This document shows, one piece after another, positions 1,117 through 18,901 of a stretch of DNA of 33,151 nt (the first letter of the stretch is position 1; each line of letters begins with the position of its first letter). Origin of the DNA: Chitinophaga pinensis (GTDB lineage: Bacteria; Bacteroidota; Bacteroidia; NS11-12g; UBA955); the NCBI GenBank assembly GCA_945860565.1, contig CAMAQS010000016.1, forward strand, positions 1-33,151, in the 5' to 3' direction. The notes under the pieces are model-generated. The model was not told the origin of the DNA. It did no database searches and worked only from the letters and a program-made list of their open reading frames with translations. The position numbers and the translations under genes were made by a program.

Positions 1117-1117
1117 A

Positions 1118-2242
1118 ATGTTAAAGAATACCCTTTCTGCAATACATACCAATTTTCAGGGAAAATCCATTAAACGTAAGATTGTGGTATTTCAATCGGA
1201 TGATTGGGGTACCATTCGTACGCCTAAATCTAAGCCAGTAAGAGACTTTATTCAAAAAAATAGATTTGATGCAAACCCATTTTTGAATTTTGACACCTTA
1301 GAAACAGAGTCTGATTTAAACTGTTTATTTGAAGTTTTAAGTCAATCCTGCGACTATATAGGCAACAATCCAATATTTACAACCAATCACGTGGTTGGTA
1401 ATCCTGATTTCAAAAGAATAGAATCTGCAAATTTTGAAGAGTATTTTTTTGAATCCACATTGGATACATATAGAAGTTTAAATTCTACCAATCAAATGGA
1501 CTCGTTTTGGCGACAGGGGATTTCCAACAAGTTAATAAGTCCTGAATTTCATTCAAGGGAACATGTTGACTTTATTTTATGGTTAACTCAATTAAAAAAG
1601 GGCAATCTGAAAGTGAAGGAAGCTTTTGATTTGGGTTTTTGGGGGATTCCTTTAGATGCAAATATCTTCAAGAACCAAAATTTAATGGCAACTTACGATA
1701 GTTTTAATCAATCCAATAAGCAGGATTATTTAAATTCGATATCAGAAGGAATTGCGATGTTTAATGCCCAGTTTGGAAAATTCCCGACAAGTTTTATACC
1801 CAATAATTATATTTTCCCTTTGTCTTTGATTGAAGAATTGGCTTCATTTAATATTGACTCAATGCAAGGGATGAAATATATTTATCTTCCAAAAGAAGGA
1901 AAAAACATCCCCCGAGAGCAAAAAAGAAGAATCAATGGCCAACAAGAAATACCAAATTCTCGAATTATTTCTTTGGTAAGAAATGTGCAGTTTGAACCTA
2001 CTTTATTTAACAATAAACTTAAAACTTTAAATTTGTGTTTAAACCAAATAAAATGGGCGTTTTTATTTGGAAAACCTGCAATTATTGATACGCATCGGTT
2101 AAATTATGTAAGTGGTTTGTCAGAGGTTAACAGGGATGAAAATTTAAAATTGTTGAAGCAATTGATAAATGAAATTATCAAAAAATGGCCTGAGGTAGAA
2201 TTCGAATCAACAGAAAACCTGAGTAAATTATACAAAGTATAA
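1118..2242 (+). CDS. NodB/CE4-like putative polysaccharide (de)acetylase, tandem paralog of the preceding gene
   Basis: FQSDDWGT, SPEFHSREH, IDTHRLNYVSGL and KWPEVEFEST match equivalent positions in the upstream ORF. Confidence 0.65.
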   Translation: MLKNTLSAIHTNFQGKSIKRKIVVFQSDDWGTIRTPKSKPVRDFIQKNRFDANPFLNFDTLETESDLNCLFEVLSQSCDYIGNNPIFTTNHVVGNPDFKRIESANFEEYFFESTLDTYRSLNSTNQMDSFWRQGISNKLISPEFHSREHVDFILWLTQLKKGNLKVKEAFDLGFWGIPLDANIFKNQNLMATYDSFNQSNKQDYLNSISEGIAMFNAQFGKFPTSFIPNNYIFPLSLIEELASFNIDSMQGMKYIYLPKEGKNIPREQKRRINGQQEIPNSRIISLVRNVQFEPTLFNNKLKTLNLCLNQIKWAFLFGKPAIIDTHRLNYVSGLSEVNRDENLKLLKQLINEIIKKWPEVEFESTENLSKLYKV

Positions 2243-2243
2243 G

Positions 2244-3347
2244 ATGAGATTTATAAATAAATATTTAAGAAATTTAGCTCCTTACAAAGTTGCTTCTCAT
2301 AAAGTTTGGGAAGTAGATAAGGCGGAAAGAAAATCGATGTTAAAGCTAGATTGGAACGAAGCAACCATTCCACCTTCACCAAATGTTAAAAAAAGGTTGG
2401 TTAAATTGGCGGAACAAGACGATATGTTTTCACTTTATCCAAGTACAAACAATGTTGAATTGGTGAATTTATTGTCTAGTTATTGCGGTGTTCCTGCCGA
2501 AAACATACAATACTTCGCAAGTTCCGATGCGCTTCATGAATATTTGGTGCGTATGTTCGTATCGGTTGGAGACCCGATTTTAATTCTTGGTCCAACATAT
2601 GACAATTTTAGATTAACCTGTGAATCACAAGGGGCTAAAATATATTATTTTGAATATTCTACAGGATTCGTTTTGGATGAGCGGAAATTTATTGATTCAA
2701 TAAAACATACAAATCCTTCTTTAATTTATATCTGTAATCCGAATAATCCATCAGGGAATTTGGTTTCAAAAAATTTCATAGAAGAAATATTGATTAATTT
2801 TCCCAATAGTTTGCTCTTACTGGATGAAGCATATTATGAATTTAGTGGGATGACTTTGGCAAATGAAGTTCTGAAGTACGATAATTTGTTCATCTCAAGA
2901 ACTTTTTCAAAAGCCTTTGCTTTGGCCAATTTTAGGGCTGGTTATTTGATTTCAGATAGCGAGAATATTAAACAAATTTCGAAAATTCGGAACCCTAAGA
3001 ACTTTACAACTTTTACACAAGAAGCCGTTATTGGGGCATTGGAAGATGTTCAATATATGCATGATTTTGTGAGTGAAGTAAAACGATCAAAGGAGTACTT
3101 TGCACATGAATTAAGCAGTATTCCTGGTGTTGTACATACTTATCAAAGTCATGGAAATTTTGTTTTAATTGAGTTTGAATCTTCGGAGATAAAAGAATTA
3201 ATATTTAAGGGATTGGCGGATAATTTTATATACGTTCGCAATTTAACACACAATGAAATGTTAAATAATTCTTTAAGAATAACCATTGGTACGCAGGAGC
3301 AGATGAAACATGTTGTGAATGTAATTAAATCAATTGTTGGAGAATAA
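2244..3347 (+). CDS. HisC-like PLP-dependent aminotransferase (fold type I)
   Basis: LDWNEATIPPSP, YICNPNNPSGN, LLLDEAYYEF, SRTFSKAFALANFRAGY (PLP Lys), typical of the histidinol-phosphate aminotransferase family. Confidence 0.85.
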   Translation: MRFINKYLRNLAPYKVASHKVWEVDKAERKSMLKLDWNEATIPPSPNVKKRLVKLAEQDDMFSLYPSTNNVELVNLLSSYCGVPAENIQYFASSDALHEYLVRMFVSVGDPILILGPTYDNFRLTCESQGAKIYYFEYSTGFVLDERKFIDSIKHTNPSLIYICNPNNPSGNLVSKNFIEEILINFPNSLLLLDEAYYEFSGMTLANEVLKYDNLFISRTFSKAFALANFRAGYLISDSENIKQISKIRNPKNFTTFTQEAVIGALEDVQYMHDFVSEVKRSKEYFAHELSSIPGVVHTYQSHGNFVLIEFESSEIKELIFKGLADNFIYVRNLTHNEMLNNSLRITIGTQEQMKHVVNVIKSIVGE

Positions 3348-4008
3348 ACAATTAATTATTTTCGATTTCTGTGAGACGTTGGTAAACATCCAAACAGCCG
3401 ATAATTTTGTTTTATGGGTTTTGGATAAGGAAAAAGTAAATTCTAAATTTCAACTAGATTTTATACAAACATTAAAGAAAATCAAGTTCATTACAATTTT
3501 AAATGTACTGTTCCCGCGGTTAAATTTTGAGAAACGGTTAATGTTAAGGCTTTTGAAAAATTTAAGTCAAGAAACAATAAGTAAAAATGCCAAAAATTAT
3601 GCGCAATGGTTAAAAGGGAAATGGATATTGGAATTAAAAGACCTATTCATGATGCATGTTGATACTGGAGCGAAAATTGTTGTAATATCTGGTGGTTACG
3701 AAATTTATTTGAAACATTTTTTTGCTGAGTTCCCAGAAGTTGTTGTGTTTGGCACTAAAATTGAATTTAAAAATGGCAAATTAACAGGTAAGTTTGATGG
3801 AAAGGATTGTATGTTTCAAGAAAAGGTGAATATTCTAAATAGATGGATTGAAACAAGCGGTGAAAACATGGAGAAAAGTGTCGTTTTTTCTGATAGTATT
3901 TCCGATTTGCCTCTGTTAAAATGGGCCAATGAGGGATTTGTGGTTTCTCATAAAAAAGAACAAAATTGGTCGGAAATGAATAACTTAAAGGAAATAATAT
4001 GGGTTTAA
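3334..4008 (+). CDS. HAD-IB family (SerB-like) hydrolase with atypical motif I
   Basis: IIFDFCETLV (motif I, with Cys in place of the second Asp), VVISGGYE (motif II), VVFSDSISDLPLL (motif IV). TTG start, overlaps the previous gene by 14 nt. Confidence 0.78.
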   Translation: MLENKQLIIFDFCETLVNIQTADNFVLWVLDKEKVNSKFQLDFIQTLKKIKFITILNVLFPRLNFEKRLMLRLLKNLSQETISKNAKNYAQWLKGKWILELKDLFMMHVDTGAKIVVISGGYEIYLKHFFAEFPEVVVFGTKIEFKNGKLTGKFDGKDCMFQEKVNILNRWIETSGENMEKSVVFSDSISDLPLLKWANEGFVVSHKKEQNWSEMNNLKEIIWV

Positions 4009-4949
4009 AGAATTTGAAATATTTCGGATCATTGGGATTTTATTTATACTATCTTTTATTTAAAGTCTATCGCTACATTAAATTTGATAGACTAAGTGAT
4101 CAAGAATATATATCCTCTAGGTTCCTAAAAACACATGGTTATCCTTTGGATTTAGACAATCCAAAAACATTAAATGAAAAGCTTCAATGGTTGAAATTGA
4201 ATGATCGCCGGGACTTGTATACAGTGCATGCCGATAAATATGGTGTTAGGGCATATATTCAGGAAACTTTTGGCGATGAATACTTGGTTCCAATGGTATT
4301 AATTACGGATCAAATCTCAGAAGTGAAACCAGAAAACTTACCGAATTATCCTACCATTATTAAAGCAACACATGATTCTGGAAGTTTTAGAATAGTTAGG
4401 GACAAGCACAAAGTAGATTGGCAGAAATTGCGAATAGATTGTAAGTGGTGGTTAAGTCAGAATTATTATTATGCAGATAGAGAATGGCAATATCAGTCCA
4501 TAAAACCGCAAATAATTATTGAAAAATTACTGGCAACCCAAGATGGATTTATTCCAAATGATTATAAAGTGAATTGTTTTAATGGGAAGGTTGGGTTTAT
4601 TTATGTTTCAGTTGATAGAGAAGGCGATAACAAACGAAATATTTATGACTCTAGCTGGAACCCACTCTTATTCACTTGGGGTGCAAAATATAAAGATCAC
4701 AGCTTAATGAGAGGCAAGGAAATCGAGCCACCTAAAACGTTGAGCAAAATGATAGAAATTTCTGAAAGCATTGCTAAAAATTATGCCTATGTGAGGGTTG
4801 ATTTTTATGATGTAGATGGACATTTATATGTAGGAGAAATCACACACTGTCACGGTGGAGGATTCGATGTAATTCGTCCAATTGAATGGGATTATATGTT
4901 AGGAGAAAAGCTCGATTTGAGCCAATATGGATTCAAGCAAAAAGCTTAA
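3999..4949 (+). CDS. TupA-like ATP-grasp family protein of polysaccharide clusters
   Basis: DNPKTLNEKLQWLKLNDRRDLYTVHADKYGVRAY, IIKATHDSG, YVRVDFYDVDGHLYVGEITHCHGGGFD are characteristic of the ATPgrasp_TupA family. Confidence 0.82.
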   Translation: MGLKNLKYFGSLGFYLYYLLFKVYRYIKFDRLSDQEYISSRFLKTHGYPLDLDNPKTLNEKLQWLKLNDRRDLYTVHADKYGVRAYIQETFGDEYLVPMVLITDQISEVKPENLPNYPTIIKATHDSGSFRIVRDKHKVDWQKLRIDCKWWLSQNYYYADREWQYQSIKPQIIIEKLLATQDGFIPNDYKVNCFNGKVGFIYVSVDREGDNKRNIYDSSWNPLLFTWGAKYKDHSLMRGKEIEPPKTLSKMIEISESIAKNYAYVRVDFYDVDGHLYVGEITHCHGGGFDVIRPIEWDYMLGEKLDLSQYGFKQKA

Positions 4950-6024
4950 AATAGGCGTAGTTTTTACTTCACTTCAAATGGTTGGCATTGCCAAATCACT
5001 TTCTGTAATTACAAACTATTTGTCGGAAAGAAACGATACTGAGATTACCGCTTTTACAATTTATAAGTTCCCTCATTTTTTTAAACTCAATAACAATATA
5101 ACGTTGATTGAGCCTGAATTTGAACACGCAAAAACCAACAAATTATATTACTACATTAAAATATTTTGGTTTTTACGTCGCAATTTTAAACGTAAAGATT
5201 TTGATGTCATTTTAACCTTTCATGAGTATTGTAATTTTCAAGTTTTGTTGGCTTCTTTAGGTTTGAATATGCCGGTAATTATTTCTGACAGAGCAAGTCC
5301 TATCAGAAAAATATCTTTTCCCAGCAACTATTTTAGAAAGTATTTATACCCATTCGCGTCTGGAATGATTGCCCAAACAAAAGTAGCAAAGGAAATATTT
5401 GGAAAAGAGTTTAAAAAACTAAAGAATATTGAAGTTATTGGAAATGCCATTGAGTCACCAATTCATACAATCACCTCAGAAAGAGAGAATATAATTTTGT
5501 GGGTAGGCAGATATGAAGGTTTGAAGGGATTGAACCTTCTAATTGAAGCGTTTGTGGCTTGTGAAAATATGGATGATTGGAAGTTGGTTTTGGTAGGCGA
5601 CGGCGATGGTTATAATCAGATTTCAACCCTAATTGGTCAATTAGATTATAAACATAGAATTATTCAAGTTGGTAAACAAAAGGACGTAAATCAGTGGTAT
5701 TCGAAATCAGAAATTTTTGCGTTTCCCTCATTTTCGGAGGGTTTTCCAAATGCACTTTGCGAAGCCATGTCTATGGGATTAGCGGCAGTAAGTTTTGATT
5801 GTGTGGCGGGTCCTTCTGAAATTATTGAAGACCAAGTAAATGGATTGTTAATGCCGGTTGGGGATGTTAAACGGTTAACAGAATCTATCATGATTTTGGC
5901 CCATAACAAGTCCAAAAGAGAACAAATTCAAGTGAATGCCAAAAAGATTATTCACCAATTTAATAGAGAAAAAATTGGGAATCAGTATTTTGATTTTTTA
6001 GAAAAAAGCCGACGGATTAAATAA
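4927..6024 (+). CDS. Glycosyltransferase, GT4-like (GT-B)
   Basis: ILWVGRYEGLKGLNLLIEAF and FAFPSFSEGFPNALCEAMSMGLAAVSFDCVAGPSEII (E-x7-E type motif). Confidence 0.9.
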   Translation: MDSSKKLKIGVVFTSLQMVGIAKSLSVITNYLSERNDTEITAFTIYKFPHFFKLNNNITLIEPEFEHAKTNKLYYYIKIFWFLRRNFKRKDFDVILTFHEYCNFQVLLASLGLNMPVIISDRASPIRKISFPSNYFRKYLYPFASGMIAQTKVAKEIFGKEFKKLKNIEVIGNAIESPIHTITSERENIILWVGRYEGLKGLNLLIEAFVACENMDDWKLVLVGDGDGYNQISTLIGQLDYKHRIIQVGKQKDVNQWYSKSEIFAFPSFSEGFPNALCEAMSMGLAAVSFDCVAGPSEIIEDQVNGLLMPVGDVKRLTESIMILAHNKSKREQIQVNAKKIIHQFNREKIGNQYFDFLEKSRRIK

Positions 6025-7158
6025 ATGAAAACAACCAAAAGAATTTTATTTGTCAATCAAAGCTCCGGTTATTTGATGTATGATCTTGTAAATTCTGAGG
6101 TTTTCAATTCATTTGATAAGGTTTTTTTTAAAGGAACTTCTAATAATAAGCAGAAAGAATTAATTGGAAAAGTTAAAGTAATTGATACGGTTAGTTACCG
6201 AAATTCGAATATTTTTTGGCGTTTTTTTACATGGTTCATTGCTTCATTTCACTTATGGATTTTAATTGTATTTAAGTACCGGAAGTCGCATATTTTCTTT
6301 ACATCAAATCCACCAATTGCTCATTTTATTGCTGCCGTTTTAAAGCTGAATTTTTCTGTTTTGGTATTGGATGTTTATCCTGATGTATTAACCCGCAGTG
6401 GTGTTTTAAGTAAAGAGAATTTTTTGGTTTCGCGATTTCAAAAGCTCAACTCAAAAATTTACACCCATGCCAGAAGAATTTATACATTAAGCGAAGGCAT
6501 GAAAAAGGTCTTGGTTAATTATGTTGATGAATCTAAGATTCAAGTCATTCCATTGTGGGGGGATGATGACAATTTAATTAAAATCAGAAAAAACGAGAAC
6601 GAGTTTTTAAAAAAATTAGGATTACAAGATAAGTTTATTTTATTGTATTCCGGAAATATGGGATTGACTCATCCAATAGAAATATTAGATAAAATTGCAG
6701 AGAAAATTGAAAACACTGCAATTCATATATTGGCCATTGGCGGTGGGCCAAAATATAAGCCTCTGAATGATTTTGCCAAAAAGAATCACTCAAAGAATAT
6801 AACTGTTTTGCCATGGCAAGACCGACATTTATTATCCGAAATAATTAGTGCAGCTGATTTAGGAGTGGTGACTTCTGATTCCAGAATTGCAGATATTAGC
6901 GTCCCCAGTAAATTATTTAATTTACTGCAATTACACATTCCTATTTTGGCGGTTGGTCACGAAGATTCAGAATTGAATTATATTGTTAACAAATTCGAAT
7001 TGGGAAAATGTTTCAATGAAAGCCAATTAGACCTTATAATAGACTATATTCTAAAATGTTACGGGGATAAAACGTTTTTGAATCAGTTAATGGATAACAC
7101 CAAGATAGCGGTGCCTTTTTTTAGTAAAATTAATTTGTTAAGTATAGATATTAATTAA
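6025..7158 (+). CDS. Glycosyltransferase, GT4-like
   Basis: LLYSGNMGLTHPIEIL, ITVLPWQDRHLLSEIISAADLGVVTSDSRIADISVPSKLFNLLQ; located directly upstream of the PglC-like gene. Confidence 0.82.
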   Translation: MKTTKRILFVNQSSGYLMYDLVNSEVFNSFDKVFFKGTSNNKQKELIGKVKVIDTVSYRNSNIFWRFFTWFIASFHLWILIVFKYRKSHIFFTSNPPIAHFIAAVLKLNFSVLVLDVYPDVLTRSGVLSKENFLVSRFQKLNSKIYTHARRIYTLSEGMKKVLVNYVDESKIQVIPLWGDDDNLIKIRKNENEFLKKLGLQDKFILLYSGNMGLTHPIEILDKIAEKIENTAIHILAIGGGPKYKPLNDFAKKNHSKNITVLPWQDRHLLSEIISAADLGVVTSDSRIADISVPSKLFNLLQLHIPILAVGHEDSELNYIVNKFELGKCFNESQLDLIIDYILKCYGDKTFLNQLMDNTKIAVPFFSKINLLSIDIN

Positions 7159-7763
7159 TGTATAAATATTTTAAGCGTCTAGTAGATTTATTGTTGGCCT
7201 TGGTTTTGGGGATCATTATCTTGCCTTTTATGTTAATTTTAGGGTTGTATGCTGTTCTTTTTATAAAAGAAGGAATTATATTTACTCAGGATAGGATTGG
7301 CTTGAAAAATAAGAAATTCAAATTGTATAAATTGAGAACTATGACAAATGAAAGGGATAGTTCTGGAAATTTATTACCAGATTCTCAGCGTCTAACCAAA
7401 TTGGGAAGAATAATTAGAAGTTTATCTTTAGACGAATTGCCTCAAATATTAAATGTTTTGAAAGGTGAAATGTCGTTTGTGGGACCAAGGCCCTTGTTGG
7501 TGCATTATTTGCCTTTATACAATCAAAGGCAAATTCGTCGACATGAGGTGCGACCGGGAATTACTGGTTGGGCCCAAATAAATGGCAGAAATTCAATTAC
7601 ATGGAAAGATAGACTTGAATTTGATGTGTTTTATGTTGAATCATTTTCGTTTATGATGGATTTAAAGATTGTTTATATGACTGTAGTTAAGGTGTTAAAG
7701 AGAGAAGGTATTTCTGGAGACAATACAGCAACCATGAAACCGTTTACAGGCGATAATTCGTAA
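7158..7763 (+). CDS. PglC-like monotopic phosphoglycosyl transferase (initiating sugar-1-phosphate transferase)
   Basis: N-terminal hydrophobic segment; FTQDRIGLKNKKFKLYKLRTM, SLDELPQILNVLKGEMSFVGPRPLL, RPGITGWAQINGRN. Confidence 0.93.
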   Translation: MYKYFKRLVDLLLALVLGIIILPFMLILGLYAVLFIKEGIIFTQDRIGLKNKKFKLYKLRTMTNERDSSGNLLPDSQRLTKLGRIIRSLSLDELPQILNVLKGEMSFVGPRPLLVHYLPLYNQRQIRRHEVRPGITGWAQINGRNSITWKDRLEFDVFYVESFSFMMDLKIVYMTVVKVLKREGISGDNTATMKPFTGDNS

Positions 7764-7766
7764 ATT

Positions 7767-8411
7767 ATGATAAGAAAAATTGCAATTTTTGGAGCTGGTG
7801 GTTTTGGTAGAGAAATTTGTTGTTTAATTGCCGAATTAATTAAAGACGGTGCCAGCTGGGAATTTATAGGTTTTTTTGATGATGGTTTGTCAAAGGGCAC
7901 AATGGTTAAATACGGTGAGATTTTAGGAGGCCGACTTGAGTTGAATGAAATACCATTTGAACTTGATTTGGTCATTGCAATAGGAAATGGGGTATCTCGC
8001 AAGAAGTTAGTAGAGGGGATTACCAACGCCAACATTGGTTTTCCTACTGTTTATCCTAATGATATGCGTTTTCTTGATATTGAATCAAATACTATGGGAA
8101 AAGGAAACATATTTTTTTCGAAATGTTCATTGAGCTGTGATGTAGAGATTGGTGAATTTAATATTTTTAATGGTTCCATTAGTGTTGGACACGATACCAA
8201 AGTTGGAAATTTCAATACATTTATGCCAGCTTCAAGGATTAGTGGGGACGTAAATATTGGCGATTGCAATTTATTTGGAACCTCAACTATAATTATACAA
8301 GGAATTAACATAGGAAAGTATACGAATATTTCTCCGGGTAGTGTAATTTTGAAGAACACAAGCGACAGTGAGACCTACATAGGGAATCCGGCTAAAAAAT
8401 TTAAATTTTAA
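7767..8411 (+). CDS. PglD/NeuD-like sugar O/N-acyltransferase
   Basis: IAIFGAGGFGREICCLI N-terminal Rossmann-like domain followed by left-handed beta-helix hexapeptide repeats (VEIGEFNIFNGSISVGHDTKVGNFNTF...). Confidence 0.88.
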   Translation: MIRKIAIFGAGGFGREICCLIAELIKDGASWEFIGFFDDGLSKGTMVKYGEILGGRLELNEIPFELDLVIAIGNGVSRKKLVEGITNANIGFPTVYPNDMRFLDIESNTMGKGNIFFSKCSLSCDVEIGEFNIFNGSISVGHDTKVGNFNTFMPASRISGDVNIGDCNLFGTSTIIIQGINIGKYTNISPGSVILKNTSDSETYIGNPAKKFKF

Positions 8412-8415
8412 AATA

Positions 8416-8649
8416 ATGGAAATACAACAATTTATCAGTCACATTGCAGAACAGTTCGACGAAACTGATCCAACCACTATCACAGAACAAACTAATTTTA
8501 AAGAGTTAGACGATTACTCTTCTTTAACTGCTTTAAATATTTTATCGGTTATAGATGATGAGTATGATGTAAACCTGAAAGGCGATGATATTCGCAATTC
8601 TACAACCATTTTAGATTTATTTAATCTTGTAAAATCAAAAGTTGACTGA
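8416..8649 (+). CDS. Acyl carrier protein (phosphopantetheine attachment protein)
   Basis: 77 aa, acidic; FKELDDYSSLTALNILSVIDDEYDVNL aligns with the ACP Ser region (SSL in place of DSL). Confidence 0.85.
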   Translation: MEIQQFISHIAEQFDETDPTTITEQTNFKELDDYSSLTALNILSVIDDEYDVNLKGDDIRNSTTILDLFNLVKSKVD

Positions 8650-9394
8650 TTACAATCCATTTAATCTCTTAGGTAAAACCATATTTATCACTGGTGCTTC
8701 TAGTGGTATTGGAAGAAGTACTGCCATAGAATGCAGTAAGTTGGGAGCCGTCTTAATTATTACAGGGCGAAATGAAGAGAGGTTGAATGAAACGTTTTCA
8801 ATGTTAAGTGGAATAGGCCATCAAGCAATTGTAGGTGATTTACTCAATTCAGATTTTAGAGATGAATTGGTAAATCAATTGCCAAAATTGGATGGTTTTG
8901 TAAATAATGCAGGTATTAATATTACCAATACTGTAAAATTTATTAAGTCAGAACAGCTAGAACAAATTTTAGATATTAATGTAAAAATACCTATTCTGTT
9001 GACCAAAGAGATTTTAAAAGCCAGCAAATTGAATAATTATGCTTCGGTGGTTTTTACGGCTTCTATTGCTGGTGTATACAGGACTTCAATGGGAAATAGT
9101 ATGTATTCAGCGGCAAAAGCTGCCATACATGGCTTTATGCGCAATGCCGCATTAGAAATGGCAAATCAAAAAATCCGCGTTAATAGTGTAAATCCGGCTA
9201 TGATAGAAACGGAGCTTGTTGGAAAGGGCAATATCACCGAAGAACAGTACGAGGCAGATCGGCTTAAATATCCTTTAAAACGCTATGGAAAAGCCCAAGA
9301 GGTTTCTTGGGCAATTATTTATTTGTTATCGGACGCGTCGGCTTGGACAACAGGCACTGCAATGGTAATTGATGGTGGAATAACACTCAGGTAA
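8642..9394 (+). CDS. SDR-family 3-oxoacyl-ACP reductase-like protein (copy 1)
   Basis: TGASSGIGRS cofactor motif, NNAG, YSAAK catalytic motif, TTGTAMVIDGGITLR C-terminus; TTG start overlapping the ACP stop. Confidence 0.9.
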   Translation: MTDYNPFNLLGKTIFITGASSGIGRSTAIECSKLGAVLIITGRNEERLNETFSMLSGIGHQAIVGDLLNSDFRDELVNQLPKLDGFVNNAGINITNTVKFIKSEQLEQILDINVKIPILLTKEILKASKLNNYASVVFTASIAGVYRTSMGNSMYSAAKAAIHGFMRNAALEMANQKIRVNSVNPAMIETELVGKGNITEEQYEADRLKYPLKRYGKAQEVSWAIIYLLSDASAWTTGTAMVIDGGITLR

Positions 9395-9395
9395 G

Positions 9396-10454
9396 ATGGC
9401 AAATTCAACAATTCAATCGGTCTCAATTAAAGGGGTTGCAGCGGCAGTTCCTAAAAATGTAGTTTATAACAAAGATTATGAATTGTTTAGCGATTTGGAG
9501 TATGAAAAATTTGTACATTCTGTAGGGATTGAGCAAAGACGGGTAACTCCAAAAGGAATGTGTACTTCTGATTTGTGTTTTGAAGCCGCCAATAAATTAT
9601 TGCTAGATTTAGGTTGGTTACCTAACGAGGTAGATGCCTTGATTTTTGTTTCGCATACCCCCGATTATAAACTGCCTGCAACAAGTTGTATTTTACAAGA
9701 GAGACTGCAACTTTCGAAAGATTGTATGACCCTTGACATATCATTGGGATGTTCTGGTTTTCCCCATGGTCTGCATACGTTATCGGCAATTTTACAAGGT
9801 GGGCATTTCAAAAAAGGTCTGTTATTGGTGGGAAATACGCAATCTCACTATTCATCTTATTATGATAAAAGTGTATATCCACTTTTTGCTGATGCAGGAA
9901 CAGCCGTGGCGTTGGAATTTGATCCAAAGGCTGAACCAATGTATTTTAATTTTGGGACAGATGGGTCTGGTTATAAATCTATAATTATTGAAGATGGTGG
10001 CTGTCGGAATCCTGTAAATCAAGAGTCCTTTGATTATTATGAATTGGGCAATGGCAATAAAAAAACCCGTTTACATGAAGGTTTGGATGGCATGGATGTT
10101 TATTCTTTTGGTATAAAAGTCGCGCCGCAAAGCTTCCGTAAGTTGTTTGAATACAGTGCGTTTTCTATGGAAAAAATAGATTATTTTTTGTTCCATCAAG
10201 CAAATAAAATGATGATCGAAAAAATTGTAAAGAAGTTAGAATTGGCTGAAAATTTTGTACCTATGAATATTAAATATTTTGGGAATACAAGTTGCGCAAC
10301 CATTCCCTTGTTGATGGTTACCAATCTGAGAGATAAATTGATAAATGATTCTTTAAATCTATATTTCTGTGGTTTTGGTGTTGGATTATCATGGGGTTCT
10401 TCAATTTGCTCTACCCAAAATATAATTTGTTCTGAATTAATTGAAGTTGAATAA
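9396..10454 (+). CDS. 3-oxoacyl-ACP synthase III (FabH/KAS III-like), copy 1
   Basis: Catalytic Cys LDISLGCSG, His FLFHQAN, Asn YFGNTSCATIP. Confidence 0.92.
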   Translation: MANSTIQSVSIKGVAAAVPKNVVYNKDYELFSDLEYEKFVHSVGIEQRRVTPKGMCTSDLCFEAANKLLLDLGWLPNEVDALIFVSHTPDYKLPATSCILQERLQLSKDCMTLDISLGCSGFPHGLHTLSAILQGGHFKKGLLLVGNTQSHYSSYYDKSVYPLFADAGTAVALEFDPKAEPMYFNFGTDGSGYKSIIIEDGGCRNPVNQESFDYYELGNGNKKTRLHEGLDGMDVYSFGIKVAPQSFRKLFEYSAFSMEKIDYFLFHQANKMMIEKIVKKLELAENFVPMNIKYFGNTSCATIPLLMVTNLRDKLINDSLNLYFCGFGVGLSWGSSICSTQNIICSELIEVE

Positions 10455-11188
10455 TGTTAGAACTAGAAAATAAAAGAATTTTGGTAACTGGGGCTTCGTC
10501 TGGAATTGGCCGACAAGTGGCAATTGCTTGTGCTGAGTCTGGTGCCGATTTGTTTATTGTTGGAAGAAACGAAGAAAGGCTAAATGAGACGTTCAATAAA
10601 TTGAAGGGCGCAAATCATCAAAAGTTCATTCTTGATCTTACAAATGAAGAGGCGTGGTTGCCGTTATTTGAGTCAATAACAGATGGATTAGACGGTGTGG
10701 TGCACTGTGCTGGTGTGAATACCAAGTATCCAGTTAAATTCTTAGATAAATCAAAAATTGAAGGCATTATGGAAATTAATTTTAACGTACCTGTTTTAAT
10801 AACACAAAAACTGTTAAAATTAAAGAAGTTAAATAAAGAAGGATCCCAGGTTTTTATTTCTTCAATTTCTTCAAGTTATGCAGCAGTGAGCAATGCAATT
10901 TATGGAGCATCGAAGGGAGCATTGGATTCTTTTTCCAAAGTGTTGGCGTTAGAATTGGCATCCCAAAAAATAAGGGTTAATACAATTTCACCTGGTTTAA
11001 TTCAAGGTGAAATGTTGGAGAATTACGAATTAAAAGATGAGTTATTGGCTTTTGAAAAGTCAATCCCTCTGGGTAGATTGGGTAAATATGAAGATGTGTC
11101 AAATGCAGTTGTTTTTTTATTGTCTGCAAAATCATCTTGGATTACTGGAACAGATTTAAAAATTGATGGAGGAATTACCTTAAAATAA
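10454..11188 (+). CDS. SDR-family 3-oxoacyl-ACP reductase-like protein (copy 2)
   Basis: TGASSGIGRQ, YGASK, WITGTDLKIDGGITLK; start overlaps the KAS III stop (TAATG). Confidence 0.9.
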   Translation: MLELENKRILVTGASSGIGRQVAIACAESGADLFIVGRNEERLNETFNKLKGANHQKFILDLTNEEAWLPLFESITDGLDGVVHCAGVNTKYPVKFLDKSKIEGIMEINFNVPVLITQKLLKLKKLNKEGSQVFISSISSSYAAVSNAIYGASKGALDSFSKVLALELASQKIRVNTISPGLIQGEMLENYELKDELLAFEKSIPLGRLGKYEDVSNAVVFLLSAKSSWITGTDLKIDGGITLK

Positions 11189-11189
11189 T

Positions 11190-12245
11190 ATGGCTTATTT
11201 AACTATACAAAATGTAACAATAAAAGGTGTTGCTACTGCGGTGCCCAAAAGGGTGGTTGAAAATAGCGAAAATGAATTGTTTGACGCCGAAGAATTAAGT
11301 AGATTTTTTGATCATGTCGGTATCAAAAGAAGACGTTGTGTTGAAGAAGGTATGACAACATCTGATTTATGTTTTGCGGCCGCTGAAAAGTTGATTAGCG
11401 ACTTAAATTGGAATAAAGAAGAGATTGATGGGTTGATTTTTGTCACTCAAACTCCAGATTATAGGAATCCCGCAACTTCTTGCATTCTTCAAGACCGGTT
11501 GGGTTTGTCGAATCAATGTTTGGCATTCGATATCTCATTGGGTTGTAGTGGTTATGTGTATGGTTTATCCGTGGCTGCCAACATGTTGTCTACGGGAAAC
11601 ATGCGTAAAATACTTTTGTTGGTGGGGGATACTACATCGTTAACTTCATCTCCATTGGATAAAAGTAGGGTTTTGTTGTTTGGGGATGCTGGTACGGCAA
11701 CAGCATTAGAATATAATCCACAAGCTCCGGTTATGCAGTTTGAACTGGGAACAGATGGATCCGGTTTTGATGCAATATATACACCTCACAGCGGTTTTAG
11801 AAACAGAATAAAACCCGAATCATTTGAAATGGTGGATTACGGTGGAGGAATTGTAAGGGCAAAGACACATTCGTGGTTGGATGGATTGGAAGTTTTTTCC
11901 TTTGGTATTTCTAGAGCTCCAAAGTCAGTGAAAGGATTGGTCAGTCATTTTAATCTGGATATAAACACAATTGATTATTTTTTGTTCCATCAGGCAAATT
12001 TGATGATGAACGAAAAAATAAGGCAAAAATTGAAATTGGAAGTAGAAAAAGTACCTTATAATTTGGAAAATTATGGCAATACTTCATGTGCTTCAATCCC
12101 TTTGCTTTTGGTTGATAAATTGAGAGAGAAAGCAGAATCTGATCGGTTAGAATTGTTGATGTGTGCATTTGGAGTTGGGCTTTCATGGGGTAGTTGTAAG
12201 GTAGAATTGAATAAAATAGTTTGTCCACCCATCATTGAAATTTAA
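11190..12245 (+). CDS. 3-oxoacyl-ACP synthase III (FabH/KAS III-like), copy 2
   Basis: Catalytic Cys FDISLGCSG, His FLFHQAN, Asn NYGNTSCASIP; clear paralog of 9396..10454. Confidence 0.92.
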   Translation: MAYLTIQNVTIKGVATAVPKRVVENSENELFDAEELSRFFDHVGIKRRRCVEEGMTTSDLCFAAAEKLISDLNWNKEEIDGLIFVTQTPDYRNPATSCILQDRLGLSNQCLAFDISLGCSGYVYGLSVAANMLSTGNMRKILLLVGDTTSLTSSPLDKSRVLLFGDAGTATALEYNPQAPVMQFELGTDGSGFDAIYTPHSGFRNRIKPESFEMVDYGGGIVRAKTHSWLDGLEVFSFGISRAPKSVKGLVSHFNLDINTIDYFLFHQANLMMNEKIRQKLKLEVEKVPYNLENYGNTSCASIPLLLVDKLREKAESDRLELLMCAFGVGLSWGSCKVELNKIVCPPIIEI

Positions 12246-13354
12246 TGTATTTTAATTCACGATATGGCGTAATCATAAAGTTATTAAAAGGGTTTTCAGA
12301 TTTAATTATTGCAATTTCACCCAAAAAGAAAAGTCAAAAAGAGAAAGAAGTAAAAGAAATATTAATAGTTGACACGCATTTAATTGGCGATTTGGTTATG
12401 TCAACCGCATTTATTCAAGCGTTAATCTTGAAATATCCGTTGGCTCAAATTCACATAGTGGCGAGATCTTACGCGTTGGATGTGTTTTTGGGATATGAGA
12501 GGGTGAAAATTCACCCTTTTTTTATTTCTAATGGTTTTGAGTTTAGTAAGTGGTTAAAGAATCTAAAAACTATCCGGCGGATAAGAAAAATGAACATCGA
12601 TTTGGGTATCAATGCGCGCGGGGATATTCGAGAAATTGCCATTGCAAAATTGTCTAAAGTCCAAAGATTGGTTTCCTTTGATTTTACGGGAGGTGGGTTT
12701 TTGTTGGATGATGTTGTTGCCGTTGATTCAAAATTTAAGCATTTGTTTGATAAATATAAGGTAATAGGCCAATATTTGGGTTTAGACTTAACTGGATTGA
12801 AACCAGAGATTCGGTTAACCGAGGCTGAAATTGAAAGTGTTTCTCGGGTTGAAAGTTACATTGGCGTACATATCGATGCCTCCAATGTTTTAAGACAACT
12901 GCCCAAAGCGGAAATATTTCAAATATTGCAAACATTCCAAAAAACGGAAAAAGTCGTTTTTTTTGCTGGGCCAAATTTGCTTTTGGGTAACATTAATGAC
13001 ATTAAATTAACATTTCCTTGGGTTGAGATTTGGAAGGGAAATCTACGCGAGATGATGGTGCATTTGAGTAGGTGCAGAATTTTAATTTCAGCAGATAGTG
13101 GACAAGCTCATATTGCTGCTTCACTGAATGTTACAGTTTTGATTTTGGGAGGGCCATCTAAGTTAAATTTTACCAAACCTTTGGGAGGGAAAGTGGAATT
13201 AATTTCCTTAGAAAATATTATTTGTTCACCTTGTGATCAAATAGAATGCAAAAATTCGGTGCATCAATTTTGTTTTCAAGGAATTGGAATTATTGTAAAT
13301 CAAAGACTTAACCAATTAATTGGAGAGGCAAGTGTTTCAAGGGATGTTGAATAA
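12245..13354 (+). CDS. GT9-family (ADP-heptose:LPS heptosyltransferase-like) glycosyltransferase
   Basis: ILIVDTHLIGDLVMSTAFIQAL and ISADSGQAHIAASLNVTVLILGGPSK motifs. Confidence 0.88.
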   Translation: MYFNSRYGVIIKLLKGFSDLIIAISPKKKSQKEKEVKEILIVDTHLIGDLVMSTAFIQALILKYPLAQIHIVARSYALDVFLGYERVKIHPFFISNGFEFSKWLKNLKTIRRIRKMNIDLGINARGDIREIAIAKLSKVQRLVSFDFTGGGFLLDDVVAVDSKFKHLFDKYKVIGQYLGLDLTGLKPEIRLTEAEIESVSRVESYIGVHIDASNVLRQLPKAEIFQILQTFQKTEKVVFFAGPNLLLGNINDIKLTFPWVEIWKGNLREMMVHLSRCRILISADSGQAHIAASLNVTVLILGGPSKLNFTKPLGGKVELISLENIICSPCDQIECKNSVHQFCFQGIGIIVNQRLNQLIGEASVSRDVE

Positions 13355-13504
13355 TAATGAGAATTGGCTAAACGAGATTTTCCGTGCTTTTTTTATTAAA
13401 AAACTATTATATTTGTTGAATAATAAAGGTATAATACTAATTGGCACGTTTTTTGATAAACTAATGATTATAACTTACTTTTTACTTAATCCAAGAGAGG
13501 AGCT

Positions 13505-13512
13505 TAATTTTG
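13505..13512 (+). promoter_or_regulatory. Candidate internal Bacteroidota -7 element TAATTTTG
   Basis: Exact TAnnTTTG match at the end of a 155-bp AT-rich gap between 13354 and the aminotransferase; no clear -33 TTG. Confidence 0.35.
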
Positions 13513-14700
13513 AAACAGAATACTTCAATACATACAGAAAAGAATGCCAGAGTAACTACTACTCAAAAGGAGAAGATATGGTTATCGTCACCGCACATGA
13601 GTGGAAGCGAGCAAAAGTATATTCAACAGGCGTTCGATACCAACTGGATTGCCCCAATTGGACCAAATGTAGATGGTTTTGAAGCGGCTATCTGTGATTA
13701 CACTAAGGCCAATCATGCCGCTGCCCTTTCTTCTGGGACGGCTGCACTGCATTTGGCTTTAAAATTATGTGGTGTTACAACAGGAGATTATGTTATTTGT
13801 CAGAGTTTAACATTCGTAGCCACTGCCAATGCAGTGATGTATCAAGGAGCAACACCAATTTTTGTTGATTCCGAAGACGAAACTTGGGGTATGGATCCTG
13901 CATTAATGGAAATGGCAATTTTACATTGTATTTCATTAGAAAAGAAACCAAAAGCAATTATTCCAGTTCATTTGTATGGCATGCCAGTAAAAATGAATGA
14001 AATAAGTCAAATTGCCCGTAAATATAAAATTCCTGTTATTGAAGATGCTGCAGAAGCCCTTGGCTCTTCAATAAATGGAAAATCTTGTGGCACTTTTGGT
14101 GAATATGGAGTTTTAAGTTTTAACGGCAACAAAATTATCACCACTTCGGGTGGAGGAATGTTAATTGCCGATAACGAGAAAAAAATTGAAAAAGCACGTT
14201 TTTTGTCAACTCAAGCTAGAGACAGTGCACCACATTATCAGCATTCAGAAGTTGGATTTAACTATAGAATGAGCAATGTTATTGCTGGTATTGGAAGAGG
14301 GCAAATGGAGGTTTTACCTTTAAGAATTGAACAACGAAGATTAGTTTTTGAATATTACAAAAAACACCTTTCTGATATTCAAGGAATTTCATTTCTGAAA
14401 GAGCAAGAAGGCAGTTTCAGCAATAGATGGTTAACCATTATTAATATTGACGAATCAAAAACTAAGGGTATAGGTCGCGAGAAGATTCGGTTGGCATTGG
14501 AAGAAGCGAATATTGAGTCTCGTCCTTTATGGAAGCCTATGCACATGCAGCCATTGTTTGAAAAAATGCCTTATTTTGGAAAAGGTGTTGCCATGAAATT
14601 GTTCAACAATGGATTGTGTTTGCCATCAGGCAGCAACCTTACTACTGAAGATTTAGATAGAGTTATCAAAATAATTCATTTAACTTTGAAGCCAAAATAA
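13510..14700 (+). CDS. DegT/DnrJ/EryC1 (PglE-like) sugar aminotransferase
   Basis: [65 protein letters not shown] (PLP Lys), [15 protein letters not shown]. Start codon uncertain (non-ATG). Confidence 0.92.
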
Positions 14701-14716
14701 CATTTTCCAAAAATCT

Positions 14717-16297
14717 TTGGGTCAAAGTAACCATTCAAAAAAAGCTATAATTATTGGAGGCGGTCCTGCTGGCCTCACTGCTGCCTATGAGTTTTTGATA
14801 CACACCGATATTTTACCCGTGGTCATTGAAGCGGAGAATCAATTGGGTGGAATTTCAAAAACAGTAAATTATAAAGGCAACTTAATGGATATTGGTGGTC
14901 ACCGGTTTTTCTCTAAATCGGACCGTGTAATGAATTGGTGGTTAGATCATTTACCCATTGAAAACGAAAATTTGGAGCAAAGTTTAACGTTGTCTTATCA
15001 AGGAAAGTCTCTGTTGATAGATTCTCCTAATTTATCTGAAGAAGACAATGAATTGCCTTCAGATAACGTAATGTTGGTGAGAAATCGAATTTCCAGAATC
15101 TATTTTCTTAGGAAATTTTTTACATATCCAATTAGTCCTTCTTTTGAAACCATCCGTAATTTGGGTTTGCTTAGGGTTTTTCGCATTTTTATGTCGTACC
15201 TATTTGTAAAAATATCCCCCAATAAGAAAGAAAGAAGTTTAGAGGATTTTTTTATTAATAGATTTGGAAATGAACTGTATAAGACTTTTTTTAAAGATTA
15301 TACTGAAAAGGTTTGGGGTGTTTCTTGTACTGAAATCAGCGCTGAATGGGGTGCACAAAGAATTAAAGGTTTAAGCATCAGCACCGCCTTATTGCATGCT
15401 TCTAGAAATATTTTGAAACTCAAAAATAGGTCAACAGATATATCACAGAAAAAAACAGAAACGAGCTTAATTGAGAACTTTCTTTATCCAAAGTTTGGAC
15501 CGGGCCAAATGTGGGAGGTTGTTGGTAATAAAATATTAAAACAAGGTGGAAAAATTTATGCCGAATGTTGTGTCAATAAAATCCATATTGAGCATAACCT
15601 TGTGAAATTCTTGGAGTATACCGACAATGGTGGAAATACACATAGAATTGATGGAGAATACTTTATAAGTAGCATGCCAGTGAAGGATTTGATTAATAGA
15701 ATAGAACCTCCAGTGCCCATTGAAATAAAAAACATTGCAAATGGTTTGGTTTACCGAGATTTTATAGCGGTTGGGGTGCTGATTGATAAATTTAAAGGCA
15801 ATAAGAAATTGGATGACAATTGGATTTACATTCAAGAAAAGGACGTTAAAGTTGGAAGAATGCAAATTTTCAATAATTGGAGTCCTTTTTTGGTAAACGA
15901 TAGTCAAAAATATTGGTTGGGGTTAGAGTATTTTTGTCAAGAAGGCGATGATTTATGGAGTTTATCAGACGATGAAATTTTGAAGGTAGCAATAAGTGAA
16001 TTAATAAAATTGGATTTTATTGATAAAAGTAATTTTATGGATGGTACGGTTTTAAAAGTACCCAAAACCTATCCTGCTTATTTTGGTTCTTACAAGGAAT
16101 TTGGAAAAATTGTCGAATACTTGGCTAATTTTGAAAATTTATTTTTAGTAGGAAGAAATGGTATGCATAAATACAACAATCAAGATCACAGTATGTTAAC
16201 TTCAATGCAGGTTGTTCAAAACATTAAAGATGGAATTGTAGACAAGTCAAATATTTGGAGTATTAATACGGAAATGGATTATCACGAAGAGAAATGA
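14717..16297 (+). CDS. FAD/NAD(P)-binding oxidoreductase, protoporphyrinogen oxidase/UDP-galactopyranose mutase-like superfamily
   Basis: [16 protein letters not shown] dinucleotide-binding motif, [43 protein letters not shown] start. Confidence 0.85.
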
Positions 16298-16821
16298 AAA
16301 TTTCAATAATTGCAGCAATAGGGACAGAGTTTGAACTTGGTAAGGTAAATACACTATTGTGGCATTTACCCGATGATTTTAAATGGTTTATTCAAAAAAC
16401 GAAAGGGAAAGCAGTTATAATGGGCCGTAATACAATGCTTAGTTTAAAGAAACCTTTAAAGAATAGATTAAACATTGTATTAAGTAGCAGAACAGAGGAA
16501 ATCTTAGAGGGTTTTACCCATGTTTTTACGTGGGATAATGCACTGGATTTAGCGAAACAATTTAATTCAGAAGAAGCAATGGTTATTGGTGGTGGCGTTG
16601 TTTATTCTCAGGCGATTCAGTTTTCGAATGTTTTATATTTGACAAAAGTGAATGCTAGTTTTCCAGAGGCTGATACCTTTTTTCCAGTATTCGATCTCCA
16701 GAAATGGAAACTGATAGAATTAATTCATCATCCAGCTGATGAACTACATGAATATGGTTTTGATTTCGAGGTTTTTGAAAATACTGAAAAACAAGAATTA
16801 AATATATCGGCGGCTATTTAA
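16294..16821 (+). CDS. folA: Dihydrofolate reductase
   Basis: [47 protein letters not shown]. Overlaps the upstream gene by 4 nt (ATGA). Confidence 0.93.
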
Positions 16822-16832
16822 ATAAATGACTG

Positions 16833-16840
16833 TAAGTTTG
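16833..16840 (+). promoter_or_regulatory. Candidate -7 element TAAGTTTG upstream of nadK
   Basis: Exact TAnnTTTG, 28 nt before the ATG at 16869; no clear -33 element. Confidence 0.4.
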
Positions 16841-16868
16841 TACATTGTTTTAAACTAAAAGCACATTA

Positions 16869-17759
16869 ATGAAAATTGGAGTATACGCAAAATCAGTTAT
16901 TGACCCGAAACATAGGGATGCATTAACAATTTTGGTGAATACCCTTAGAGATAGAAACCACGACATTTACTGTCCACCATCTTTGGAGGATTTTATAAGA
17001 ATGAATACCAATGGAATAGTTCCTCATGTATTCGATTATTATTCGAAATCGGATGTGGGAATTGATGTACTATTTAGTGTTGGCGGAGATGGTACTATTT
17101 TGGATTCATTGCATTTGGTTAGGGACAGTGAAATTCCAGTTTTGGCAATTAATACGGGAAGATTGGGCTTTTTGGCCAGTGTTTCGGCGGAAAAAATACA
17201 ATTTGCAGTTGAACAAGTAGAATTAGGGTTATACAAAATTGAGCCAAGATCTTTGTTGCATTTGGAATCGAGCGAAGAGATTTTTGATTATAATTTTGGA
17301 CTTAATGATTTCGTGATTCATAAAAAAGAAACTTCAAGTATGATTGTTGTACATGCTTATTTAAATGGTGAATTTTTAAATAGTTACTGGAGTGATGGAT
17401 TGATAGTTTCTACGCCTACAGGTTCAACTGGGTATTCATTGAGTTGTGGTGGACCAATAATTTTCCCAAAAAGTGATAGTTTTGTCATAACTCCAATAGC
17501 GCCACATAATCTAAATGTGAGGCCTGTAGTGTTAAGTGACGATGTGGTAATTTCATTTGAAATTAGAGGTCGGGCAAGTAGTTATTTAGCGAGTTTGGAT
17601 GCGCGAAGTCACAGTATTACCAATCAAGTTTCGATGGCTGTAAAAAAAGCGAATTTTTGTTTGAATTTAATGCAGTTGAACGATGTTAATTTCATGGATA
17701 CTTTAAGAAATAAGTTGAATTGGGGTTTTGATAAGCGGATGGAAGGGTTAGATCATTGA
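16869..17759 (+). CDS. nadK: NAD kinase
   Basis: FSVGGDGTILDSLHLVRD, NTGRLGFLASV, SDGLIVSTPTGSTGYSLSCGGPII. Confidence 0.96.
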   Translation: MKIGVYAKSVIDPKHRDALTILVNTLRDRNHDIYCPPSLEDFIRMNTNGIVPHVFDYYSKSDVGIDVLFSVGGDGTILDSLHLVRDSEIPVLAINTGRLGFLASVSAEKIQFAVEQVELGLYKIEPRSLLHLESSEEIFDYNFGLNDFVIHKKETSSMIVVHAYLNGEFLNSYWSDGLIVSTPTGSTGYSLSCGGPIIFPKSDSFVITPIAPHNLNVRPVVLSDDVVISFEIRGRASSYLASLDARSHSITNQVSMAVKKANFCLNLMQLNDVNFMDTLRNKLNWGFDKRMEGLDH

Positions 17760-18901
17760 AATATTTATTTTTAAACTTGGGTTTTCTGGTATTTTCTAAT
17801 TTCTTAGATGCTCAAATACCAAATTTAAATGGCCAAAATAGGTTAGATTTGGTCTCATGGAACATAGAGTGGTTTGGAGATGCAAGCAATGGCCCATCCA
17901 ATGATGTGACACAATTGAATAATGTAACAAAAATCATTAATGGTTTGGATGTAGATATTATGGGATTGTGTGAAGTTAGCAATTCTAATTATTGGCAATT
18001 GTTGAAGAATAATTTGCCAAATTATCACGGGGTAATAAGCACTTGGGATCAACCACAAAAAACAGCACTTTTCTTTAAAAAAAGCCAGTTTAAGTTAGTG
18101 TATCAAAAGCATGTATTGAGCAACTATGAGTACGAATTTGCAAGTGGGCGTTTGCCATTGGAAGTGTGTCTTGAAGTTATTGATAAATCCTTAAAGATAG
18201 ATACCATCTATTTCTGGGTTATTCACTTAAAAGCAAATACAGGTAGTACATCTGCTAAAATTGAATCATATAATCGAAGAAATAGTGCATCGGTATTGCT
18301 AAAATCACATGTATTAAACACATGTAAAAAATGGCCAGGCTTTGTTATTGGTGATTGGAATGATGATTTTGACAAGAGCATTGTAACCGGTTACAAATCG
18401 CCATTTGAAAGTTGGATTGAAGATACTGCAAATGCTTTTGTGCCAACATACAAATTGAGCTTGGCTGGCAAAAAATCTACGGTTAGTTATTCTGAAATGA
18501 TAGATCACATTGCATGCAGTGCAAATGCCAAGAATAATTGTGTTGTTGATTCAACGATGGCAATTTATGCAGATAATTGGGTTACAAGTTATGGTTCTTC
18601 CACTAGTGATCATTATCCCGTCTATACACGATTTGATTTTACCAGAAACAACAATCAAACAAACAGTATAGATGTCAATTTAGAATTGTCGTCTACAGGT
18701 ATAAGTTGGAACGGTGAACATTGGATATTAAATGGAGTTTTTTTGGAAATGCAAGAAGCGACAGTATTTTCTTCTGACGGGAAATTGTTGTTTAATGGTT
18801 TAATTGGGACCTATAAACCCACAAATCAGAAGGTTGTTTGTGTCGTACTTCAAAGCGACCAATTTCACGATTTGAAAAGAAATTGGGTATATATTCCATA
18901 A
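17756..18901 (+). CDS. Secreted endonuclease/exonuclease/phosphatase (EEP) family protein
   Basis: N-terminal signal-like peptide (KYLFLNLGFLVFSNFLDAQ), LVSWNIEWFG, GLCEVSN, VIGDWNDDF, SDHYPVYTRF. TTG start overlapping the nadK stop; C-terminal SSDGKLLFNG-type segment may be a degenerate sorting domain. Confidence 0.85.
   Translation: MKYLFLNLGFLVFSNFLDAQIPNLNGQNRLDLVSWNIEWFGDASNGPSNDVTQLNNVTKIINGLDVDIMGLCEVSNSNYWQLLKNNLPNYHGVISTWDQPQKTALFFKKSQFKLVYQKHVLSNYEYEFASGRLPLEVCLEVIDKSLKIDTIYFWVIHLKANTGSTSAKIESYNRRNSASVLLKSHVLNTCKKWPGFVIGDWNDDFDKSIVTGYKSPFESWIEDTANAFVPTYKLSLAGKKSTVSYSEMIDHIACSANAKNNCVVDSTMAIYADNWVTSYGSSTSDHYPVYTRFDFTRNNNQTNSIDVNLELSSTGISWNGEHWILNGVFLEMQEATVFSSDGKLLFNGLIGTYKPTNQKVVCVVLQSDQFHDLKRNWVYIP

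Follow-up and report, generated by a model that had tools for sequence, protein, structure and literature searches.

The window considered here is the whole of a 33,151-nucleotide contig (CAMAQS010000016.1) from a genome assembly of Chitinophaga pinensis (GCA_945860565.1), which totals 2.39 Mb in 156 contigs and is 88% complete. It harbors, in one row on the plus strand, the genes for PglC, PglD, an acyl carrier protein (ACP), a short-chain dehydrogenase/reductase (SDR), a 3-ketoacyl-ACP synthase III (KAS III), a second SDR, a second KAS III, a GT9 glycosyltransferase, and PglE. The row is nearly gapless: adjacent genes of the cassette overlap or lie a few bases apart, the exception being the interval of about 155 bp between the GT9 and PglE genes. 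A first-pass annotation of the window had described the row as a system that makes an N-hydroxyacylated 4-amino sugar through two rounds of condensation and reduction, and the gene order, strand, spacing, and coordinates are as it gave them, with the catalytic residues intact.

The row begins with a PglC/WfpB-like phosphoglycosyl transferase (positions 7158–7763; PF02397, 200 bits), the initiating enzyme, which shares 51–56% identity with the PglC proteins of cassette loci in other genomes. It is followed by an N-acyltransferase of the PglD/NeuD family (7767–8411; PglD_N, 49 bits), which scores 152.9 bits against TIGR03570, where the curated cut-off is 160.8; its catalytic histidine is H142, a residue kept in all 36 aligned sequences. 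The dedicated ACP (8416–8649) adjoins the PglD gene and matches PF00550 slightly over the cut-off (21.9 bits), and an alignment with other cassette ACPs places its phosphopantetheine serine in the cassette-type motif. SDR 1 (8642–9394, motif YSAAK) and SDR 2 (10454–11188, motif YGASK) are of the 3-ketoacyl reductase type; both carry the YxxxK motif of ketoreductases, and the FabI spacing is not present in either. KAS III 1 (9396–10454) and KAS III 2 (11190–12245) each match PF08545 and PF08541 and retain the Cys-His-Asn triad. Between the second of these and the PglE gene lies a heptosyltransferase-like GT9 glycosyltransferase (12245–13354; PF01075, 55 bits). In agreement with the first-pass annotation, Pfam scans of the window revealed no dehydratase, KAS I/II, or thioesterase families.

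The last gene of the row (13510–14700) encodes a 4-aminotransferase of the PglE/LegC type, with homology from about residue 23 and a score of 408.8 bits against TIGR04181 (cut-off 420). Its best solved relatives are PDB entries 1o61 and 4ztc (E 1e-105), which we take to be entries of Campylobacter jejuni PglE, and it has orthologues of 72–73% identity in two sister genomes, G007 and G002. Since the aminotransferase is of the PglE type and not the VioA type, the sugar, which had been called a 4-amino-4,6-dideoxyhexose, is better named a 2,4-diamino-2,4,6-trideoxyhexose. It is likely to be 2-acetamido-4-amino-2,4,6-trideoxyglucose (QuiNAc4N), and initiation of the PglC type is supported.

In sister genomes, the RlmN/Der genes on one side and the dihydrofolate reductase (DHFR)/NAD kinase genes on the other flank one variable polysaccharide site. 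The same site in G007, which belongs to the same genus, carries the same backbone as the window (the first gene and the HisC-like aminotransferase are each 53% identical, TupA 55%, and PglE 72%), and between PglD and PglE it holds the set KAS-ACP-KAS-SDR instead of the window's cassette; the GT9 gene between the cassette and PglE was not found in this locus. In G002, the first two genes and PglE are kept and the cassette is absent, whereas in G003, G005, and G010 no polysaccharide cluster is found between RlmN/Der and DHFR/NAD kinase. The last three (loci L112, L110, and L111, respectively) are natural empty sites, in which a flavin oxidoreductase gene lies directly between Der/RlmN and DHFR. 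The acyl cassette is exchanged as a unit at one chromosomal site, and among close relatives its occurrence is sporadic (3 of 57 genomes).

A scan of named genomes with A-type KAS queries (the clades are described below) gave 80 loci, to which further genomes added more. In the interval from PglC/PglD to PglE, related cassettes turn up repeatedly in the Bacteroidota and Chlorobiota, so that the gene order of the window is not due to chance. The simplest loci have no cassette and read PglC-PglD-PglE (L156, L161, and L162). Those with one module include L179, which reads PglC-PglD-ACP-SDR-KAS-PglE-PglF and so repeats the order of the window but with only one SDR-KAS unit, and L181 (PglC-PglD-KAS-ACP-SDR-PglE-PglF). 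Two KAS genes and one SDR gene between PglC/PglD and PglE are found in G007 (locus L006), in L004, in L182 (PglC-KAS-PglD-ACP-KAS-SDR-PglE-PglF), and in many Chitinophagaceae, but two KAS and two SDR genes in strict alternation in this position are seen only in the window in this sample. In the genome G016, a contig starts at an SDR-KAS pair that resembles SDR 2-KAS III 2, and the PglD search there returned only distant proteins (27–28% identity). A rumen member of the Bacteroidia (L068, 3447–11053) has three KAS III, two SDRs, one ACP, and one PglD, and possibly carries out three rounds of condensation. Widespread in about 20 Flavobacterium species (L008–L063) and in Mucilaginibacter (L019–L052) is an ACP-KAS-(x)-SDR-KAS cluster, shared from species to species, with A- and C-type KAS III and with PglE distant or lacking, which probably makes a different acylated sugar or product.

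The KAS III enzymes of these loci fall into clades A, B, and C, and the clades differ in the company that they keep. Where a complete locus with PglD nearby has a sole KAS, it belongs to clade B in six cases, to clade C in three, and to no assigned clade in one, and never to clade A; every such locus with a clade A enzyme has a second KAS (the second KAS of L006 was entered as B from the tree). The lack of loci with A alone is not an effect of the search, because A-type queries would favor finding them. Among species with two KAS, Flavobacterium aciduliphilum and Ferruginibacter paludis have the A+B combination and Agriterribacter humi has A+C. We infer that B and C carry out the first condensation and A the second. 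Both KAS III of the window lie in a clade W inside A, together with L002, L038, and L068; support is 97–98 in two trees, and in a further tree W was not recovered as one supported fork. KAS III 2 is 62% identical to the KAS of L002, which likewise follows an SDR. That single-module loci use the window's type of KAS was considered and ruled out, as those loci have clade B or C.

Neither window enzyme scores as a housekeeping FabH: against NF006829 (cut-off 249) KAS III 2 reaches 246.5 and KAS III 1 reaches 215, and against TIGR00747 (cut-off 292) they reach 217 and 173. A housekeeping FabH that scores over the cut-off (339.8 bits) is encoded elsewhere in the genome. It is true that KAS III, ACP, and reductase are enzyme families of fatty acid synthesis, but given the missed cut-offs, the separate FabH, and the sporadic cassette, we reject a role in ordinary bulk fatty acid synthesis, which is scarcely credible for these genes; the first-pass annotation had named such a role as one of the outcomes that would count against its proposal, and it is not borne out.

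As both KAS III lie in W within A, the first condensation probably falls to one of the two, or else the starter is supplied from outside. The second of these options would have both A-lineage enzymes elongate a ready-made starter, such as 3-hydroxybutyryl from coenzyme A metabolism or acetoacetyl-ACP from the housekeeping FabH, so that the product would be a longer or differently built polyhydroxyacyl group and not 3,5-dihydroxyhexanoyl. It draws on the lack in the window of the clade B or C enzymes that serve alone elsewhere, on the presence of the housekeeping FabH, and on L068, where two SDRs accompany three KAS, two of them W members. Also in its favor, W32 and R151 of FabH, which contact coenzyme A, are not conserved in the window enzymes (Escherichia coli FabH and AcpP and C. 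jejuni PglD served as reference sequences, and the FabH one is a residue short late in the sequence, so positions after 274 were ignored). Other pairs made up of A enzymes alone exist (L067 and L071), however, so that the initiating role may have passed to an enzyme of the A lineage, and the window's PglD shares its clade and signature, as described next, with the cassettes that combine A with B or A with C, suggesting the same class of acyl group. On balance we consider an outside starter improbable.

The PglD of the window groups with those of two-KAS cassettes, in a clade that comprises 24 rows with a support of 100 and whose members all adjoin a cassette; as these loci had been fetched by their KAS, the test was repeated starting from PglD, across 396 genomes not chosen for KAS. 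In that survey, all seven homologues sharing no less than 38% identity with the window's protein lay beside ACP/KAS genes, as against about 4 of 22 below 38% (Fisher p 0.0002), which supports the proposed dedicated acyl supply for the PglD-like enzyme. Members of the clade have an asparagine every 18 residues (N114, N132, N150, N168, and N186 in the window), so that each coil of the left-handed beta helix carries one, and the GAGA-like loop of cassette-free PglDs is replaced by forms that mostly end in serine (SPGS in the window). C. jejuni PglD has a GGGA loop and lacks the asparagine ladder. The full ladder is found in 19 of the 20 loci that have A-type KAS (AB, AC, or WW) together with either PglC or a PglE of at least 45% identity, a restriction applied afterwards, since the first Fisher test took any DegT protein as PglE and so mixed in 18–20 near-identical Flavobacterium loci whose aminotransferase is 25–28% identical. 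In B-only loci the ladder is partial, with two or three of four asparagines, and in C-only and cassette-free loci it is absent.

The two reductases descend separately. SDR 1 comes closest to the SDR of a cassette in Bacteroides timonensis (L038), whereas SDR 2 pairs with the SDR of L002 (support 100/97) and not with SDR 1; a sister relationship of the two SDRs is rejected (approximately unbiased, AU, test, p 0.0005), as is that of KAS III 1 and KAS III 2 (p 0.04). A recent tandem duplication of an SDR-KAS unit is therefore rejected for the SDRs and weakly for the KAS, and this argues against the two SDR-KAS pairs being equivalent duplicates. The hydroxyl centers that standard FabG reductases produce are R; speculatively, two different SDRs could set the hydroxyl centers separately.

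The separate descent of two intact SDR-KAS pairs also bears on whether there might be a single round only, which would yield 3-hydroxybutyryl, as in viosamine or QuiNAc4N bearing a hydroxybutyryl group, and leave the second SDR-KAS pair redundant or serving another acyl group of the locus. Although 3-hydroxybutyryl is well documented on such sugars and a single-module cassette of the same gene order exists in L179, the PglDs of single-KAS loci lack the full asparagine ladder that the window's has, and a single round seems to us unlikely. The two rounds proposed by the first-pass annotation are supported by the intact pairs and by a PglD of the two-KAS clade.

The closest described counterpart is the O-polysaccharide of Flavobacterium psychrophilum, in which QuiNAc4N carries a 3,5-dihydroxyhexanoyl group and for which Cisar et al. 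2019 (PMC6519341) proposed wfpC and wfpE as KAS, wfpD as ACP, wfpF as reductase, wfpG as PglD homologue, and wfpB as PglC homologue. Sequences of wfpC/wfpE are deposited under MK214915 and MK214917. The idea of a dedicated ACP/KAS III/SDR cassette is thus not new, being already a published prediction for that organism; what is new here is the swapping of cassettes at one site, the KAS III clades, and a PglD clade of its own with the asparagine ladder and changed loop. The R1 set of F. psychrophilum, wfpB-wfpG with pglE/pglF, has in common with the window the PglC and PglD homologues, a dedicated ACP, two KAS, a ketoacyl reductase, and a PglE-type aminotransferase, and its R-group genes vary between otherwise identical loci, like the cassette exchange seen here. 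The equation of the two sets in the first-pass annotation nevertheless fails in detail: one reductase is described there, whereas the window has two SDRs of separate descent and no clade B or C enzyme, its KAS III both belonging to one clade (A/W), and it differs also in the strict SDR-KAS-SDR-KAS order, the GT9 gene, and the lack of a linked PglF. According to a review, the F. psychrophilum group has the (3S,5S) configuration, and 3,5-dihydroxyhexanoyl occurs in Vibrio cholerae O3. A (3S,5S) product implies a reductase specificity other than that of standard FabG.

Other systems share parts of this arrangement. The viosamine island of Pseudomonas syringae (vioA, vioB, vioS, vioR, and acp; PMC3927599) resembles the window in devoting an ACP, a KAS III, a ketoacyl reductase, and an N-acyltransferase to an acylated 4-amino sugar, but it acts on dTDP-viosamine for flagellin with one KAS, one reductase, and one round, and its aminotransferase is of the VioA type, for dTDP-sugars, where the window has the PglE type. 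Deletion of vioR abolishes the analogous N-3-hydroxybutyryl sugar, which is genetic support for such cassettes in their one-round version. The Pgl system of C. jejuni (PglF, PglE, PglD, and PglC) shares the aminotransferase, N-acyltransferase, and initiating transferase families, yet uses acetyl-CoA as donor and has no ACP, KAS, or SDR genes. The qhbC/qhbB/gdr module of Acinetobacter baumannii (PMC9676051) likewise puts a hydroxyacyl group on N-4 of the same sugar, giving QuiNAc4N with (S)-3-hydroxybutanoyl, but as listed it includes no KAS or ACP genes.

We favor a reading in which the window holds an exchangeable R-group cassette within a Wza/Wzc-type surface-polysaccharide locus. A short acyl chain would be loaded onto the holo-ACP. 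One of the KAS III/SDR pairs would produce a 3-hydroxybutyryl-type thioester, and the other would carry out a second extension and reduction; as the set lacks a dehydratase, both hydroxyls would be retained, and the result would be an acyl-ACP of the 3,5-dihydroxyhexanoyl kind. The acyl group would then be transferred by the PglD-like enzyme to N-4 of UDP-QuiNAc4N, which PglE makes, and the PglC-like enzyme would hand the sugar phosphate to the lipid carrier. Judged from sequence, it is very probable that the cassette supplies the N-acyl group, whereas two rounds giving a C6 dihydroxyacyl group are only somewhat better than an even prospect; the exchangeable N-acyl cassette is the supported core and chain length a prediction. 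We infer the order of the rounds, the chain length, the stereochemistry, and acyl-ACP as the donor. As a whole, the reading of two rounds and a dihydroxyacyl group placed on QuiNAc4N by PglD appears probable.

The remainder of the locus lies partly on another contig of the same genome (C24). Positions 1–473 of the window overlap its final 473 bases end to end and ungapped at 95.3% identity, a pattern expected where strain variation breaks an assembly, and from this overlap and the flanking anchors the two contigs appear to be halves of one locus. C24 carries RlmN and Der (by homology to L109), followed by Wza, Wzc, and an ABC half-transporter, and then carries PseB, PseC, two PseF, two PseI, an ACP-sized protein, an SDR, an AMP-binding enzyme, LuxE, LuxC, a BKACE enzyme, a GT4, and a Wzy-like candidate. 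This upstream half encodes pseudaminic acid synthesis, interleaved (L116 8901–20000 and L117 1–2161) with a second acyl module, made up of the ACP-sized protein, the SDR, the AMP-binding enzyme, LuxE, LuxC, and BKACE, which may represent a different route of acyl supply to a sugar in the same locus. The first-pass annotation had placed PglF, Wzx, and Wzy upstream of the window, and of these the Wzy-like candidate is there; no Wzx-family match was obtained on C24. A PglF just upstream was rejected, because the dehydratase of C24 is PseB (TIGR03589, 503 bits) and no PglF is found in the assembly.

With the Pse genes and acyl-module genes in the same locus, and N-hydroxybutyryl nonulosonic acids being known, the window's cassette might feed the nonulosonic acid, or both sugars, and not QuiNAc4N only. 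The cluster on C24 is itself equipped with a carrier-like gene and GNAT acyltransferases, however, and the place where the cassette sits and is swapped is between PglD and PglE, which leaves this very unlikely.

On the window itself, positions 1–7158 hold, on the plus strand, backbone genes largely common with G007: two genes without Pfam matches, the HisC-like aminotransferase, an HAD-IB phosphatase, a TupA-type ATP-grasp enzyme, and two GT4. The first two (1–2242) encode related proteins of about 370 amino acids and are kept in G007, G002, and L180 near PglC/PglE genes. The next three are consecutive (2244–4949), conserved with G007, and look like a row that makes a small amino compound and then ligates it to a sugar acid. 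On the right flank of the polysaccharide site, also on the plus strand (14717–18901), the flavin oxidoreductase is followed by the genus-conserved anchors DHFR, NAD kinase, and an EEP family protein.

Several points weigh against the two-round assignment to QuiNAc4N. PglF was not found in the assembly at its 88% completeness; G007, G002, and G016 do encode a long dehydratase of the PglF type, which in G007 and G002 lies outside the polysaccharide locus, elsewhere on the chromosome, and it was not found in G005 and G013. The pseudaminic acid pathway in the same locus has an ACP of its own, so sharing of ACPs is possible. Neither window KAS III is in clade B or C, from which the sole KAS of other loci come, and the comparison with F. 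psychrophilum was made on published gene descriptions. Finally, the PglDs with the asparagine ladder form one clade and are thus one correlated innovation rather than many independent events, and L180, with the ladder and a divergent KAS, is an exception.

Tentatively, and as something less likely than not, these loci may be taken to follow a readable code, in which a B or C KAS III alone gives one round, an added A gives a second, and PglD changes along with them. The window would realize this code newly, with two A-derived KAS III, each with a separately recruited SDR, so that every round would have a module to itself; the configuration of each hydroxyl center might then be fixed on its own, and the product could be a stereoisomer or chain that F. 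psychrophilum does not show.

In fish pathogens and other bacteria, serotype depends in part on the N-acyl groups that diaminotrideoxyhexoses carry. The natural comparators described here, which between PglC/PglD and PglE have either no cassette, a single KAS, two KAS with one SDR, or two KAS with two SDRs, allow a direct test of gene against structure and would make it possible to predict acyl groups from genomes.

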